Shown: piece by piece, positions 7,885 through 49,097 of the stretch
How the letters are laid out: every line of letters begins with the position of its first letter
How positions within the stretch are numbered: position 1 is the stretch's first letter
NCBI GenBank assembly: GCA_020723085.1
Contig: DYJN01000022.1
Location: 1-51,040 of the forward strand
Source: Arcobacter sp.
GTDB taxonomy: Bacteria; Acidobacteriota; Terriglobia; Bryobacterales; Bryobacteraceae
Length of the DNA: 51,040 nucleotides
Direction of reading: 5' to 3'
Program-made: the position numbers and the translations under genes
The notes under the pieces: generated by a model
Seen by the model: only the letters and a program-made list of their open reading frames with translations
What the model was told of the DNA's origin: nothing
The model's database searches: none

Positions 7885-8285
7885 AGCGGTCCAGTCTCAG
7901 TCTGGTCTTGAGCCTGCTGATCGTGTTCGCCAGCGGCGTGGTGGTAGGAGTCGTCGGCGACCGCTGGCTCGGCCGCGCACAGCGGGCGGAACGGAAAGCG
8001 CCCCGCACCCCGGAAGAGTACCGGCGCGCCTACGTCGAGGAGATGAACAAGCGGCTGAAGCTCTCCGCGGAGCAGCTCCGGCAGCTGAACCAGATCCTGG
8101 ACGAAACGCGCGAGCAGTTCCGGTTGCTTCGCGAGAAGCAACGGCCCGAAGTGCGCGCCCTGCAGGAGGCGCAGACGGAGAAGATCAACGCTATTCTGGA
8201 TCCGGTTCAGAGGGAGGAATACGCCCGCATGCGGAAGGAGCGGGAGGAGAAACGAAAGCGGGAAGAGAAAGAGCGCGGCCATTAA
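7881..8285 (+). CDS. CpxP/ZraP-like periplasmic heavy-metal/envelope stress protein
   Basis: The start is the ATG of the ATGA overlap at 7881; the frame is open further upstream but only as a shadow of the anti-sigma gene. The 134-residue product has an N-terminal signal anchor (about 5-27). A helical region follows with LSAEQLRQLNQILDETREQF, resembling the LTxxQ-type helices of CpxP/Spy/ZraP proteins, and then a second helix, ILDPVQREEYARM. It ends in a long K/R/E-rich tail. It would sit in the periplasm and probably senses or buffers envelope damage, feeding the sigma/anti-sigma pair. Confidence 0.75.
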   Translation: MKRSSLSLVLSLLIVFASGVVVGVVGDRWLGRAQRAERKAPRTPEEYRRAYVEEMNKRLKLSAEQLRQLNQILDETREQFRLLREKQRPEVRALQEAQTEKINAILDPVQREEYARMRKEREEKRKREEKERGH

Positions 8286-8306
8286 GCCGCGCCTGCGGAC
8301 GGGGAC

Positions 8307-8558
8307 CTAGTTCTGTGTGTTCTTGATGCGGTCCGCCTTTTCTTTCTTGATGGCGGCGCTGCGCTGCAGTTTGCGCTGGAAGCGGTCGATCCGGCCTTCG
8401 CTATCCACAAGCTTCTGCCTTCCGGTGAAGAACGGGTGGCAGTGGGAGCAGATTTCCACGCGGATGTCGCCCTTGTGCGTGGAGCGGGTCTTGAAGGTGT
8501 GTCCGCACGCACAGATGACGTTGACTTCGTTATAAGCAGGGTGGATGCCGGCTTTCAT
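8307..8558 (-). CDS. rpmE: Ribosomal protein L31 (zinc-binding form)
   Basis: The 83-residue protein starts [10 protein letters not shown]. It carries the four zinc-ligand cysteines of C+ L31 proteins at C16, C18, C37 and C40 (CACGHTF and [10 protein letters not shown]). It binds the 50S subunit near the central protuberance and bridges to 30S. The C-terminus is a basic tail somewhat longer than in E. coli. AAGAGG lies about 12 bases upstream of the ATG. It appears monocistronic, with its own extended -10 promoter and a terminator-like hairpin separating it from the small unit upstream. Confidence 0.97.
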
Positions 8559-8586
8559 GGTGTGAGGGAACCTCTTAACTTACCCC

Positions 8587-8595
8587 AGTATAGCA
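8587..8595 (-). promoter_or_regulatory. Extended -10 promoter of rpmE
   Basis: On the minus strand TGC-TATACT (TATACT at 8592-8587, with TG one base upstream) forms an extended -10 element about 29 bases before the rpmE ATG. No convincing -35 is seen, which fits an extended -10 promoter. Confidence 0.6.
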
Positions 8596-8622
8596 GACCG
8601 CCGGGGCCGCGGCTGGAAAGCA

Positions 8623-8657
8623 AAAGCCCCGCGGCCGGACTCCGGCGGCGGGGCTTT
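8623..8657 (-). terminator. Intrinsic terminator of the short unit upstream of rpmE
   Basis: The 10-bp arms aaagccccgc (8623-8632) and gcggggcttt (8648-8657) enclose a second inner stem (gccg/cggc). Read on the minus strand the hairpin is followed by TTTTGCTTT. It is symmetric enough to act in both directions, so it could also stop plus-strand readthrough. Confidence 0.8.
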
Positions 8658-8782
8658 CGGTAGCCTTCACATACAGGCCTGCGGCCTGTCTTGGGTGCGC
8701 TCGAGTGGTTGGGTCCGGCTCGCTCCTCTTCGCCAGCCACGGTGGGCCTTGATGGCGAGCGGCACGGAAACCAGAAGCGAGC

Positions 8783-8827
8783 CTATCCGCTGACCACCTC
8801 GCGCGTAGGCTTACTACCAGAACTCAT
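8783..8827 (-). CDS. 14-residue microORF with near-perfect Shine-Dalgarno
   Basis: The ATG at 8827 is followed by 13 sense codons and TAG (8783-8785), encoding MSSGSKPTREVVSG. The preceding AAAGGAGGTGG (8838-8848) is almost a full complement of the 16S 3' end, with about 12 nt between GGAGGT and the ATG. It could be a leader peptide, a secreted signal peptide or a translated regulatory element. No neighbouring biosynthetic gene explains it. Confidence 0.45.
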   Translation of the reverse strand: MSSGSKPTREVVSG

Positions 8828-8864
8828 ATCGACTGGACCACCTCCTTTCTTCCGTGATGCCCCG

Positions 8865-8893
8865 ATGGTACGGGAATCGGGAGGAAAAGTCAA
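8865..8893 (-). promoter_or_regulatory. Consensus housekeeping promoter of the short unit
   Basis: On the minus strand TTGACT (8893-8888), a 17-bp spacer and TACCAT (8870-8865) form a near-consensus sigma-70 promoter. The expected start is near 8858, 10 bases before the strong Shine-Dalgarno. Confidence 0.8.
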
Positions 8894-9007
8894 CAGAATT
8901 TTGAGACCACACACCAAGATATCGGACTAAGCGGCGAAAAGGGCCTATAACTAGCGCTAGGGTTCCCCCGCGCCGCACCCTGCTTCCCGCGGTGCAGCCG
9001 CCCCTCT

Positions 9008-10435
9008 TCAAAGCCAACCCTTGGGCAGAGGGACAATCGTCCGGCGCATCGTCTCCCCTGCCCGTAGTGGACGGATTTCGAGCGCGAAGGTTTCCGCCCG
9101 GCGGACGAGTACTCCATACAGCGGCAGATCGCGCGGCTGGACTACATAGCGCCCCTCGTAGAGGTCGAAGATATCCCTGGGCGAACTCATGACGACCGGG
9201 GAATCCGGCAATGAGCGAAGGCGGAACGCCGCCGTGGAGGGCTCATAATTGGCGTAGCTGTAGCAGCGCCCGATGCAGGCGCGGTCGATCATGTGGAGCA
9301 TGGGGTTCATGCTGGAGGGAATCGCCGTCACATCCGTCACGGCGCGGCTCCCGGGCGGCAGTTGCCGGACCGCCTGATGGAAGACTCTCTCGGCTTGTCC
9401 CAAAGCGCGCCAGTCTGAGTCGAGGAGGACGAAGTAGACGGCAGCCGCGGCGAGACAGGCGCCCAGAGTGAAGCGGGACGGCAGGCGGGCGCACAGCCAG
9501 GCATGCAGAAACAGGGTGAACCACAACGCCATCCGCCAGTCGATGAAGTAGAGGGAGTGCCGGGTGCCGGGCCAATCCAGGCTCGTGGGCAGAAAAGCCA
9601 CGCCTGCCAGCGTCAGCAACGCCAGAGAAGCAGCGGGCGGGTCGAAGGAGCGCAGCCTGAACCTCGTGGCTGCCCAGAGCGCGGCGGAGATCCAGGACAG
9701 CGCCAGCAGCAACGCCGGAGCGAAATATCCGGGGCCATAGATCAGAAATGGGGTGACGCCGGAAACGTGCAGCCACCGCGCCGTCATCCTCACGGCAGGA
9801 AACGCTGCTGACAGAACCGCCGCAACGGCAGCCACGCCCAGGATGCCCCCAAACAGCAGCCATTTGCCATATTCCGGATCCAGCCTTCTTCGCACCAGTA
9901 AAAAGCCCGCATATGCCGCTGCCAGAGCCGCCCCCAACAGATGGCCGGAGGCTGCCGCCACAACCAACGCAGCGGCTGCCGCCAGCGTAGCCGCCCCTCC
10001 TGAGAGGGCGAGGCCAATGGCCCAGAAACCCAAAGCGCACGAAAGATAGTAATTGAAGAAGCCCTGATGGTACACCCAGCCGTAGGCGAGCATCGCCAGA
10101 AGGGGCGCTGAGGGCCATGCGGAGCGCTCCGTCAAGCGTTCCAGGAGAAAGAATGCGCCCCAGAAGAACAGCAGAACAGAGACCGACACCGCCGCCTTCT
10201 CCGCGAACACCGGTCCGCCGATCCGCCACAACCCCTCCAGCCACCAATCGAACAGCACGTTGGAATACTGCGGCACGATCTCCAGCCCCAGCGGCTTGCC
10301 CGCCTTGACCAGAAGCGCCAACCACGTGTTGTAGAGATGGCTCGCCAGATCTCCAGCCTGCACGTGTTGCTGCACGACCACTGGAGCGATCAGCAGGAGT
10401 GACACTGCGGCTCCGGCGGCAAGCCGGCGTCTCAT
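9008..10435 (-). CDS. Polytopic membrane protein, possible GT-C-like glycosyltransferase
   Basis: The protein is about 475 residues, with about ten hydrophobic helices through residue ~360 and a soluble C-terminal part of ~110 residues. After the first helix comes GDLASHLYNTW. An Asp in the first extracytoplasmic loop is typical of GT-C lipid-linked-sugar transferases, which gives the tentative call. ATG at 10435 is chosen because the paralogue at 11248-12681 aligns from the same point; GTG at 10459 is an alternative. The conserved C-terminal pattern (MLHMIDRACIGRCYSYANYEPS) is shared with the paralogue and may form the acceptor-binding domain. No known family is recognised with certainty. 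Confidence 0.55.
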   Translation of the reverse strand: MRRRLAAGAAVSLLLIAPVVVQQHVQAGDLASHLYNTWLALLVKAGKPLGLEIVPQYSNVLFDWWLEGLWRIGGPVFAEKAAVSVSVLLFFWGAFFLLERLTERSAWPSAPLLAMLAYGWVYHQGFFNYYLSCALGFWAIGLALSGGAATLAAAAALVVAAASGHLLGAALAAAYAGFLLVRRRLDPEYGKWLLFGGILGVAAVAAVLSAAFPAVRMTARWLHVSGVTPFLIYGPGYFAPALLLALSWISAALWAATRFRLRSFDPPAASLALLTLAGVAFLPTSLDWPGTRHSLYFIDWRMALWFTLFLHAWLCARLPSRFTLGACLAAAAVYFVLLDSDWRALGQAERVFHQAVRQLPPGSRAVTDVTAIPSSMNPMLHMIDRACIGRCYSYANYEPSTAAFRLRSLPDSPVVMSSPRDIFDLYEGRYVVQPRDLPLYGVLVRRAETFALEIRPLRAGETMRRTIVPLPKGWL

Positions 10436-11247
10436 CGCGGGTGAACCGGAGTGTGCCACACCCCGTCAAACGGCGGAGCCGCGGGCAGGCTTTAGACCAA
10501 AGGGCAAAATGCCGGCCTTGCAACGTGATCCGGTCGCTGCTGCGCGTGTCGAGACAGGAAATCCCCTCTATGGCTGTTGCTTGGGGATTCCTCTCAGAGA
10601 CTGCGGCGCTTGAGCCGAACGGGGAGGAGGCAACCGCCCGACCTCAGTGACTTAACCTAGACCCGCCTCAACCAAGAGCACGCGAAATGCCAGCCGTAAG
10701 TTGTTGCAAAAGAAAGCGGGCCTATCCCATCGGAGGACAGGAGGTACGCATTTTGGGATCTCAACTATGAGAGTTAGAATCGTTGTCTGATCTCGAACCT
10801 CCGATGCTTTCCGCCGGCACTTGGCGGGAGGAAGGATCTGCGCCTTTCGCAGTCTCCGGCGATTCCGTCATGTCTCCTCCCCCCCATGCGTTTCGCTCCC
10901 CCTTTCAGGATCCTGACCGCACGGTTTCGGCGTGGCACCGCTTCACGTCCTCTCTTCTTCGCCGACACGGGACGCCTGATGGACAGCAAGCAGCAGGGGC
11001 GCGCAAGTCTGCCCTCGCGATTTTCATCCTTGTCCATTCAGACTCCCAGCGGAGCGCGGCGCCATCGCGTTCCGCTGTCTCCCGCAACCGGCGCCCGGCG
11101 GATTGGGCGGAAGGGAACGGCTGCTCGCACGGCGCCCCCCAAGTACCGGCTGAGGGCATTCTGGCGAGGCGCCCCGCGTCCGGCGACCCCCGAATCGGAA
11201 ATTCGAAGTCGCCTTGCTCCCGTGATGCGCCTCAAGGGGGGCGAACT
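10436..11247. other. Gap between the two membrane-protein paralogues, no gene seen
   Basis: About 800 bp separate the paralogue pseudogene from the intact copy. Open frames exist on both strands (for example around 10783-11475 plus), but their composition is Arg/Pro/Ser-rich without family features. I see no RNA gene or convincing promoter. It may be decayed coding sequence. Confidence 0.4.
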
Positions 11248-12681
11248 TCAGAACCAATCAGGAGGAATTTCCACACTCGGGCGTGGGACAGTCTCGCCTA
11301 CCTTCAACGGACGGACTTCGAGCCGAAAAGGGGAACGAGAGGCGAGGAAGATGCCGTAGAGCGGGACATCCCTCCGCCGCACGAGGAACCGCCCTTCCTG
11401 CAAGGCGTCGACATCCGTGCTGGAGTCCATCACGACCGGCGAACCTGGCAGCGCCCGGATCCGGAAACCGGCTGAAGACGGCACGTAGCTGGCATAACTG
11501 AAACAGTGGCCGATGCAGGCTTTGCTGACCATGTGGTTGAGCGGGCTCATCCACTTAGGTAGCCCCGTGACGGCGGCAACAACGCGCCCTCCCTCGGGAA
11601 CCTGGTAAACCGCCTTGTTGAACTGCTCCTGGGCGGCTGCCAAATGCCTGTAGTCTACGGCAAGGAACCCGAAGTACGCGACGGCGAGCAGAGTCTGCGA
11701 CCCAACCATGAGGATCGTTTGCCGGCTATGGGCCGCCAGGGCCTGGACGGCGACGGCGAGAATGAACGCCAAACGGAAGTCGATCGCTGTCAGCGGCCGG
11801 TTGAGGCCAGGGGGAACGACGGCTGCGGGCAGGAGCACGATTCCGCAGGCCACGATGACCGCAACGCCGGCGGCCGGTTCCCGCATAAGCTCCTCCCATC
11901 TGCCTTCCCAATGGTCTGCGATGAGGACCGCCCACAAGAACGTGATGCAGACGACAAGGAAACTGTACTTGGCGCCGAAAGGCCTGAATGGAGTAGCCAG
12001 GATCGCGTGCAGAGTCTGCTGCAATTCCCAATGGGATGGAAGTCCCGCTCCCAACCCGAATGCCAGGGCGGCTACCAGCGCGCAGGCGCCTGCCGTGAGT
12101 CCGATCCGCGCCGCCGGCGCAGCTTTCCGCGCCAGAATCACAAAGACAGCAATCCCGGCTGTGACTGCGGCTCCCAGAGCATGGGCGAGCACCGACAGAA
12201 CCCATGCCGCGGCGGCCGGGGTAGCTCTGCCCGGGCGGTTCCACACCCAGGACAGGGCCCAGAACCCCAATCCGCACGACAGGTAGTAGTTGAAAAAGCC
12301 CATGTGGTAAATCCAGCCGTACGACAGCATCGCCAGCAGAGGCGCAGAGGGCCATGCCGGCCGCCCGCTGATGGCGCCAACCAAAGAAAACGCTCCCCAG
12401 AAGAAGATGAGCACGCACGCGGCCACTGCGATCTTCTCAGCCATGATCGGCCCCGCTAGGCGCCACAGCCCTTCCAGCCACCAGTCGAAAAGGATGTTGG
12501 ACCATTGATGCGAGACCACGAGCCCCAGCGGCTGCCCCTGCTTGACCATCAGCACAAGTCATGTGTTGTAAAGATGAGACGGAAGATCCACGGCAGGCAC
12601 ATGCCTTGGCAGGAGAACTGGCAGCAACAGCAGGACCGAAGCCCCCGCGCACTGCAGCGTCGCTTTCAGGCGTCCTGACAT
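11248..12681 (-). pseudogene. Paralogue of the 9008-10435 membrane protein, interrupted by in-frame TGA
   Basis: Two abutting open frames (12681-12559 and 12555-11248) are one gene. The first encodes 40 residues starting MSGRLKATLQ and ending DLPSHLYNT, then TGA at 12561-12559, and the same frame continues LVLMVKQGQPLG. The intact paralogue has HLYNTWLALLVKAGKPLG at this place, so the TGA replaces a conserved Trp (TGG to TGA). The rest of the frame is uninterrupted and ends with the same C-terminal domain (NHMVSKACIGHCFSYASYVPS). With 477 codons it matches the paralogue's length. This is a recent nonsense mutation or a sequencing error. Restart at the ATG near 12555 would lack the first helix and the loop Asp. 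Confidence 0.8.
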
Positions 12682-48572: not shown

Positions 48573-49097
48573 AATCGGTACGCGGTGCGTCCTGAAAGAC
48601 GCGTTGTTCTTGCAGGTGCAAGTCCTGTCCGGGTAAGCGCCGGAGCGCCCGGTAGCAGACTCCAGCCGGGAGGAGAGATCCGACCGCGCCGAGCGGAGTA
48701 TCGAAAGCCCTTGAAACAGAGGGGAGCAAACCGGCGGGCCGCAACAATCAGTGAACGCAATAGCCTCGACAAATTCTCAGCCGAAAGGTGTTTGGGAGGG
48801 CCGAGCCGCTCATGTCACGGCGAAGGCCATGGACAGCACGCAGGACCGGAACGGGTGCTGGACCTCCCCGGGGTCGCAGGCGGCGGCACGTGGGTACAGA
48901 GCAACGCGGAACAGGAGAGACCCTGCCTGGCAGCCTCGTCGGGCAAAGACCGGGCGTATAAGGCCGGACGGCTGAAGTCGCGCGGAGCCGGGAGGGAGTC
49001 CGAGAGGTCCGTAGTAGCCGAGAAGGCGCGCAAGATAACGCGCTGGAGGGAAGGGGCCTTGCTTTGATCACGCTTGAGGGGAGGCAAGTGCGAGGGC

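Follow-up and report, generated by a model that had tools for sequence, protein, structure and literature searches.

Positions 8620-8893 of the 51,040-nucleotide stretch analysed here (the window) hold, on the minus strand, a short unit with its own promoter and terminator in which an extreme Shine-Dalgarno (SD) sequence precedes an open reading frame of 14 codons. Such a combination raises the question of whether the peptide, the RNA or the passage of a ribosome is what the unit is for. A sequence-only reading of the locus had offered a regulatory RNA controlled by translation, an anti-SD decoy or a new small peptide gene, and each element that it claimed (promoter, SD, ORF, inverted repeat and terminator) was found at its claimed place on the minus strand. 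What it had overlooked was a second SD, the block that could pair with it and a relative in Rfam.

Elements of the unit

The -35 hexamer TTGACT (8893-8888) and the -10 hexamer TACCAT (8870-8865), separated by a 17-nt spacer, were identified in the sequence and by a promoter scan, for which they are the sole promoter-like site in 8200-9200 (0.2 expected from shuffles). TTGAC is kept in the members of the family read whole. With a start deduced from the -10 hexamer, the transcript would cover 8620-8858 of the minus strand, about 238 nt, as judged from sequence and fold. It would end at an intrinsic terminator, a hairpin with a T run at 8622-8656, which is plain in the sequence and in the fold although it is absent from the list of a terminator scan of 8200-9200. 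That scan returned two sites (0.9 expected), one at 8293-8272 and a weak one at 8791-8776 in the end of the ORF. None of 200 shuffles reached the stability of the fold predicted for 8620-8865 (z -3.24).

The first SD (SD1), AGAAAGGAGGTGGTCCAG at 8850-8833, forms 18 contiguous pairs, one of them G.U, with the 16S 3' tail CTGGATCACCTCCTTTCT. The tail used for this comparison, CCTGCGGCTGGATCACCTCCTTTCTAAG, is that of a genome of the same genus (G004). The window's own 16S tail was not seen, since a search of its 4.19-Mb assembly found no GGATCACCTCCTTT. The same assembly holds six copies of CACCTCCTTT; one copy is SD1 itself, and no 16S tail is among the remaining five. In S. aureus, pairing extended along the 16S tail accompanies weak start codons (available parts of PMC13009471). 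This extended SD serves ordinary mRNAs, whereas the unit is an RNA of its own, built on a micro-ORF with a second SD ahead of the stop, an architecture of which those parts of the paper give no description. Four Terriglobales-type members (L185, L186, L187 and L189) carry an extra A in SD1 (GGAGGATGGTCC) that breaks the 16S complement, and SD2 and the stop are kept in them.

Downstream of SD1, the micro-ORF MSSGSKPTREVVSG runs over 14 codons from the ATG at 8827 to the TAG at 8785-8783, in a frame kept in relatives. Its late codons contain the second SD (SD2), GAGGTGGTC at 8792-8800, whose GAG lies 15 nt before the stop. An inverted repeat (8717-8783) begins in the stop codon, with 10 of 10 pairs in the window and 8-9 of 10 in four relatives of the same genus. 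Two further pairings are possible on the minus strand, between a 5' arm CACGGAA (8850-8856) and TTCCGTG (8763-8769), and between the GGTGGTC of SD2 (8798-8792) and a 3' block GGCTACC (8659-8665) placed just before the terminator. Read from the sequence, this architecture appears well supported.

Distribution and known relatives

A blastn search with 8600-8900 gave matches in 22 of 61 genomes, the window's own included: all five of the genus (own included), 16 others of the family and one of another family in the order. One match (L020, in G005) was chance on reading. Over the aligned portion, the four relatives from the genus share 85-94% identity with the query. Members read near the window carry SD1, a start codon and a 13-19-codon ORF whose usual ending is R-E-V-[A/V]-x-x, with TTGAC and the terminator hairpin wherever the sequence reaches far enough; L007 has a peptide unlike those of the other members.

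Scanning species genomes with the pattern GAAAGGAGGTGGTCC-N18..48-GAGGTGGC returned at least 120 loci. Among the 80 titles listed, most were Actinomycetota, accompanied by Acidobacteriota, Sumerlaeota, Zixibacteria, Planctomycetaceae, Nitrospirae and one deltaproteobacterium; these phylum names are record titles, many of them of metagenome bins, and mislabelling is possible in some cases. One locus titled Acidobacteriota (L066) carries an Acidimicrobiia-like unit. We then used R1, a sequence-only model built from 52 cores of Acidobacteriota and Actinomycetota, which finds both. Among 247 Acidobacteriota genomes, R1 matched 79 at E<=0.01 and 58 of these at E<=0.002, one of the 58 (G097) over model positions 2-38 only. 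All 30 Acidobacteriota loci that were read, the window's own included, are the unit. The other 21 matches, with best E values of 0.0027-0.0099, were dropped as weak. Sixteen of them cover only about model positions 3-35, i.e. the SD, and we infer that 16S antisense would produce such SD-only matches.

Outside Acidobacteriota, where the threshold was E<=0.001 and a minority of the matches was read individually, R1 matched 83 of 198 Actinomycetota genomes, 34 of 98 in the phylum of L059 (the Zixibacteria locus), 17 of 40 in that of L049 and 20 of 149 in that of L060, with nine loci of the last located and read. The phylum of L073 gave 3 of 148, including its own genome and all three read, and that of L067 gave 2 of 118, namely its own genome and an SD1-only match (L210). 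Absence of a match is weak evidence, because R1 is a sequence model that was mostly run with strict filters. Matches come one per genome (12 of 12 in one set, 83 of 83 in Actinomycetota, and likewise in the phyla of L060, L059 and L049), and in six of the 79 Acidobacteriota genomes there are two, at least one of the two being weak. By record titles, the unit is an RNA class of Acidobacteriota, Actinomycetota, Zixibacteria, Sumerlaeota and a planctomycete phylum, and is rare elsewhere. Conservation beyond close relatives, which the sequence-only reading had named as the check on the unit, was thus found in several phyla. No match was found in phages, and the plasmid search used the consensus of the Caulobacter sRNA CC2171 only.

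At gathering thresholds, Rfam gave no match at the unit, including to Ms_IGR-5 (RF02471). The window's only RNA match at this level is a group-II-D1D4-4 intron at 48610-48749 of the plus strand (80.2 bits). A weak Rfam search points to Ms_IGR-5 and CC2171. Within the window's class, 41 genomes were searched with the Ms_IGR-5 model: 11 matched at E<=1 and none passed the cut-off, the best score being 39.2 bits; of ten such loci read, eight are the unit and two (L033 and L034) are chance. Of 18 actinomycetotal loci, 10 reached the RF02471 gathering score in a region that overlaps the scan match, with up to 153 bits; the Zixibacteria locus L059 reached it too, with 55.9 bits. Of the 11 loci tested beside L059, seven (L164, L067, L168, L206, L214, L049 and L177) gave sub-threshold full-length matches and four gave none. 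Since the window does not reach the gathering score of 45 bits, it is a relative in a wider class and not an RF02471 member by Rfam's rule. Ms_IGR-5, listed in Rfam as an actinobacterial sRNA, shares with the window SD1, the ORF, SD2, the 3' block and the terminator, as read in Acidobacteriota and Actinomycetota among the matches listed. Its consensus can be read as an ORF ending CEVAAR-stop followed by a CAGUCACC block and the terminator.

The available parts of the respective reports record Ms_IGR-5 transcripts in M. smegmatis (PMC10454040), S. lividans (PMC8079986) and S. avermitilis (PMC8780764), and ribosome reads on Ms_IGR-5 in M. abscessus and M. smegmatis (PMC4974804). Our literature search returned no described function for it, and the portions available of PMC8079986, PMC4974804, PMC8780764, PMC10454040, PMC9094748 and PMC6429828 describe neither the ORF, nor the SD2 helix, nor the wider range. 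An sRNA filed as actinobacterial appears to be part of a wider, multi-phylum class with two SDs and a probably translated micro-ORF. The class and its architecture go beyond the descriptions found, and Rfam already lists one part of the class as an sRNA.

CC2171 (RF01867) resembles the window in that it begins with the same 16S complement, followed by a GTG-started short ORF and a terminator. Its full-length match is weak, 19.1 bits for the window and 32.7 bits for L217, both below the gathering score of 75. In contrast to the unit, the CC2171 ORF has 24-26 codons (VS[HN]C...) and, in five alphaproteobacterial copies, no GAGGTGG before its stop. Because SD2 is missing, we keep CC2171 only as an analogue or a very distant relative. 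Alphaproteobacterial CC2171-type units (L221-L225, near 1500) lie on large plasmids and consist of a 16S-complement SD, a GTG, a VS[HN]C... ORF and a hairpin terminator; on two Skermanella plasmids such a unit stands just downstream of hflX and ribonuclease J.

The micro-ORF, its stop and the SD2 helix

Comparison across members revealed a second SD-like sequence at the end of the ORF, typically GAGGUGG. In all 195 distinct located members the stop lies 13-17 nt past the GAG of SD2. The distance is exactly 15 nt in 184 (182 as printed, plus L050 and L061, where GAGGAGG first gave 18) and 13, 14, 16 or 17 nt in the other 11. Among the scan loci the stop stands exactly five codons past the GAG in 116 of 120, a spacing that the search pattern did not demand. 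Starts within 14 nt after SD1 fall in the frame of the GAG of SD2 147 times, versus 22 and 6 times in the other two frames, in a set of 160 members from which L031, L032, L060, L180 and L182 were omitted for not fitting the SD2-stop pattern and L007, L106, L152 and L155 had been set aside beforehand. Twelve of the 160 (L063, L066, L070, L082, L089, L093, L105, L123, L124, L138, L144 and L160) have no in-frame ATG, GTG or TTG; ten of these appear to start at an in-frame CTG and two at an ATC, and the extreme SD is intact.

The 205 located loci reduce to 195 distinct units. To these an ORF scan was applied, which required a start 12-35 nt after the first G of SD1, a length of 8-26 codons and a GAGG close to the end of the ORF. 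Second copies stand outside this count, as do L005, which a contig end truncates, L187, L191-L193, L196, L210-L212 and L229. The scan succeeded in 176 of the 195 with ATG, GTG or TTG starts and in all 195, each with an ORF and SD2 near the stop, once CTG, ATC and ATT were also allowed. Control windows 300-900 nt downstream passed in 11 of 718 cases (16 with the wider starts), and in 1 of 718 (2 with the wider starts) when the distance of 13-17 nt was demanded. The conservation of SD2 is partly ascertainment, as the scan, the model and the extraction of members all used SD2. The ORF counts are inflated by selection for GAGGTGG and by kinship, neither of which explains the start frame or the stop position. 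Since the open frame, its in-frame start and its near-fixed stop distance are conserved, translation rather than mere binding seems to be selected, and the micro-ORF is likely translated.

SD2 could also take part in a long-range helix, as blocks just before the terminator are able to pair with it, CAGUCACC in Actinomycetota and CUCGGACCACC in Acidimicrobiia. To quantify this pairing, the 3' block was anchored by the motif AAYNC..ACC, with pairing unused, in 116 of 160 members, which gave 83 different combinations; the 44 members left unanchored include the window's own (L001), and some of the anchors used are clearly in the wrong place. The helix then averaged 7.02 pairs. Permuting SD2 2000 times, without regard to kinship, gave 6.19 +/- 0.10 and never more than 6.57. 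At positions 6-12 the paired fraction was 0.661 in register versus 0.32-0.54 when slid by 1-3, and permutations gave a mean of 0.601 and a maximum of 0.633. A compensatory pair is seen between L207 (GGUGGUGUC/GACACCACC) and L208 (GGUGGUGAC/GUCACCACC), and the Terriglobales-type helix reads GGUGA-CUG/CAG-U-UCACC with one bulge. Across the class, the comparison of sequences makes the existence of the SD2/3'-block helix appear well supported.

An unanchored search for SD2 partners was noisy, with at most 10% of foreign SD2 segments pairing as well in only 40 of 158 members; for the window's member, 94% of them paired equally well. By sequence alone, the window permits GGUGGUC/GGCUACC, 7 bp with two G.U. 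In an alignment of 19 Bryobacterales that ends before the terminal block, RNAalifold paired SD2 with GGCCNCCTC instead, with double changes at five of the 12 pairs, so that the partner of SD2 is uncertain in Bryobacterales and there may be two partners there. Over 23 loci, the 5' arm (CACGGAA or TCACTGA) and the middle segment (TTCCGTG or TCAGTGA) could form 7.35 pairs on average, versus a mean of 5.74 and a maximum of 6.22 in 100 letter shuffles, and the arm and its partner change together in a few Bryobacterales (L001/L004/L007 and L021). Many of the loci L041-L160 and L164-L193 also share a conserved GAAUNCCA-like stretch 5' of the 3' block.

Proposed operation and alternatives

The SD-like sequence at the ORF end stands in frame 0, where it encodes E-V, in 184 of the 195 members; the two remaining frames account for 6 and 5. 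The 11 frame-switched members represent few lineages (L217-L219 are near-identical and L152 and L155 alike), and their peptides end, for example, in ...RRWVR, ...RRWLSA, ...QRGGTV, ...CGGGSS or ...GGGARL. In these members the peptide is wholly changed and SD1, the SD-like sequence and a nearby stop stay, so selection seems to act on the position of the ORF end and not on the encoded peptide. A functional micropeptide gene would account for endings of the form E-V-[A/V/P/S/T]-x-x within most clades and for L026, where valine is encoded by a synonymous GTA. However, the E-V codons are SD2 itself, which 11 of 195 members read otherwise (RRW, RGG or GGG, for instance), the remaining residues vary freely, and amino-acid conservation across the class, by which such a gene would be recognized, was not found among the 195 members. 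The small peptide gene suggested at the outset was therefore dropped on account of the frame switching and of the free variation outside E-V, and we regard it as very unlikely.

With modest confidence, we favour a reading in which the unit is a small-RNA gene in its own right and works via the ribosome as a stand-alone RNA switch, within a broad bacterial class to which Ms_IGR-5 also belongs. SD1 would capture a 30S subunit, which would translate the micro-ORF. On reaching the stop, the ribosome would cover SD2 and open the SD2/3'-block helix. The P-site codon would then stand 12 nt downstream of the GAG of SD2, which resembles the spacing at initiation; because of this likeness, the 16S tail could pair with SD2 and hold the ribosome at the stop. 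Departure of the ribosome would let the SD2 helix close again. The RNA could thus switch between two forms, one closed and one kept open by a held ribosome, and would report or absorb initiating ribosomes. Candidate outputs are titration of ribosomes, exposure of the 3' block for pairing in trans and the setting of the RNA's own stability. Ribosome holding at SD2 and any output are what we infer, here as in a bolder and only tentative version, which we doubt more than we credit: a pan-bacterial two-SD device in which SD2 grips the 16S tail at the stop and the held ribosome keeps the terminal helix open, such that one RNA per genome would measure or buffer free initiation capacity.

The ribosome may also play a humbler part. 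In an ordinary trans-acting sRNA, the micro-ORF would only load a ribosome that protects or processes the RNA, and the ribosome would not be a signal. The unit is indeed stand-alone and terminated, it occurs as one match per genome in the two sets counted (12/12 and 83/83), it has no class-wide neighbour, and footprints are common on ncRNAs: in the available parts of PMC4974804 they are general on those of E. coli, with protected ncRNAs that show no clear evidence of translation. The near-fixed 15-nt spacing between SD2 and the stop and the in-frame start nevertheless point to a terminating ribosome, which makes this explanation unlikely in our view. We find it still harder to accept a passive anti-SD decoy, whose 16S complement would soak up 30S subunits with translation as an incidental event. 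The 18 contiguous pairs with the 16S tail fit it, but a decoy needs neither start, nor open frame, nor stop, all of which are conserved in frame, and the Terriglobales-type members with the extra A break the complement yet keep SD2 and the stop. Of the decoy as originally proposed, the 18-nt complement stands and mere binding does not, given the conserved open frame with its in-frame start and stop. Among the three original options, a regulatory RNA controlled by translation comes out best and has support.

Leader-peptide attenuators and regulatory uORFs are short ORFs whose translation competes with RNA helices, and in the window's lineage the unit might be a translation-coupled leader of rpmE (PF01197; 8558-8307, minus strand). 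The gene lies near the unit in 20 of 182 loci (17 distinct units and three second copies). These loci are exclusively from Acidobacteriota and carry units similar to that of the window, and in 19 of the 20 rpmE follows on the same strand 211-325 nt past SD1. Against such a leader, the terminator and a separate TATACT -10-like box, seen by eye, intervene before rpmE, and other families stand nearby elsewhere, those picked being an aconitase-family protein, PF02578, GDPD, a PLP enzyme and a thioesterase. No conserved downstream gene was found for the class: the largest cluster of flanking ORFs covers 25 of 148 loci, and the clusters mix spurious frames. The neighbourhood, with rpmE in 20 of 182 loci, rules out an rpmE leader for the class as a whole, and for the window's lineage we consider it highly improbable. 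The separateness from rpmE asserted in the sequence-only reading thus extends to the class. Attenuators differ from the unit, whose class is without a common downstream gene and whose peptide is unconserved; because that common neighbour is lacking, a trans-acting or ribosome-general RNA fits better than a leader.

The function of the ribosome-operated RNA that we favour is testable by point mutations of the start, the stop, SD2 and the 3' block in M. smegmatis or Streptomyces. For annotation, the class provides a pattern that tends to escape gene finders for proteins and RNAs alike. Elsewhere on the minus strand of the window, two neighbouring membrane-protein ORFs (9008-10459 and 11248-12555) have similar C-terminal halves by eye and probably arose by tandem duplication.
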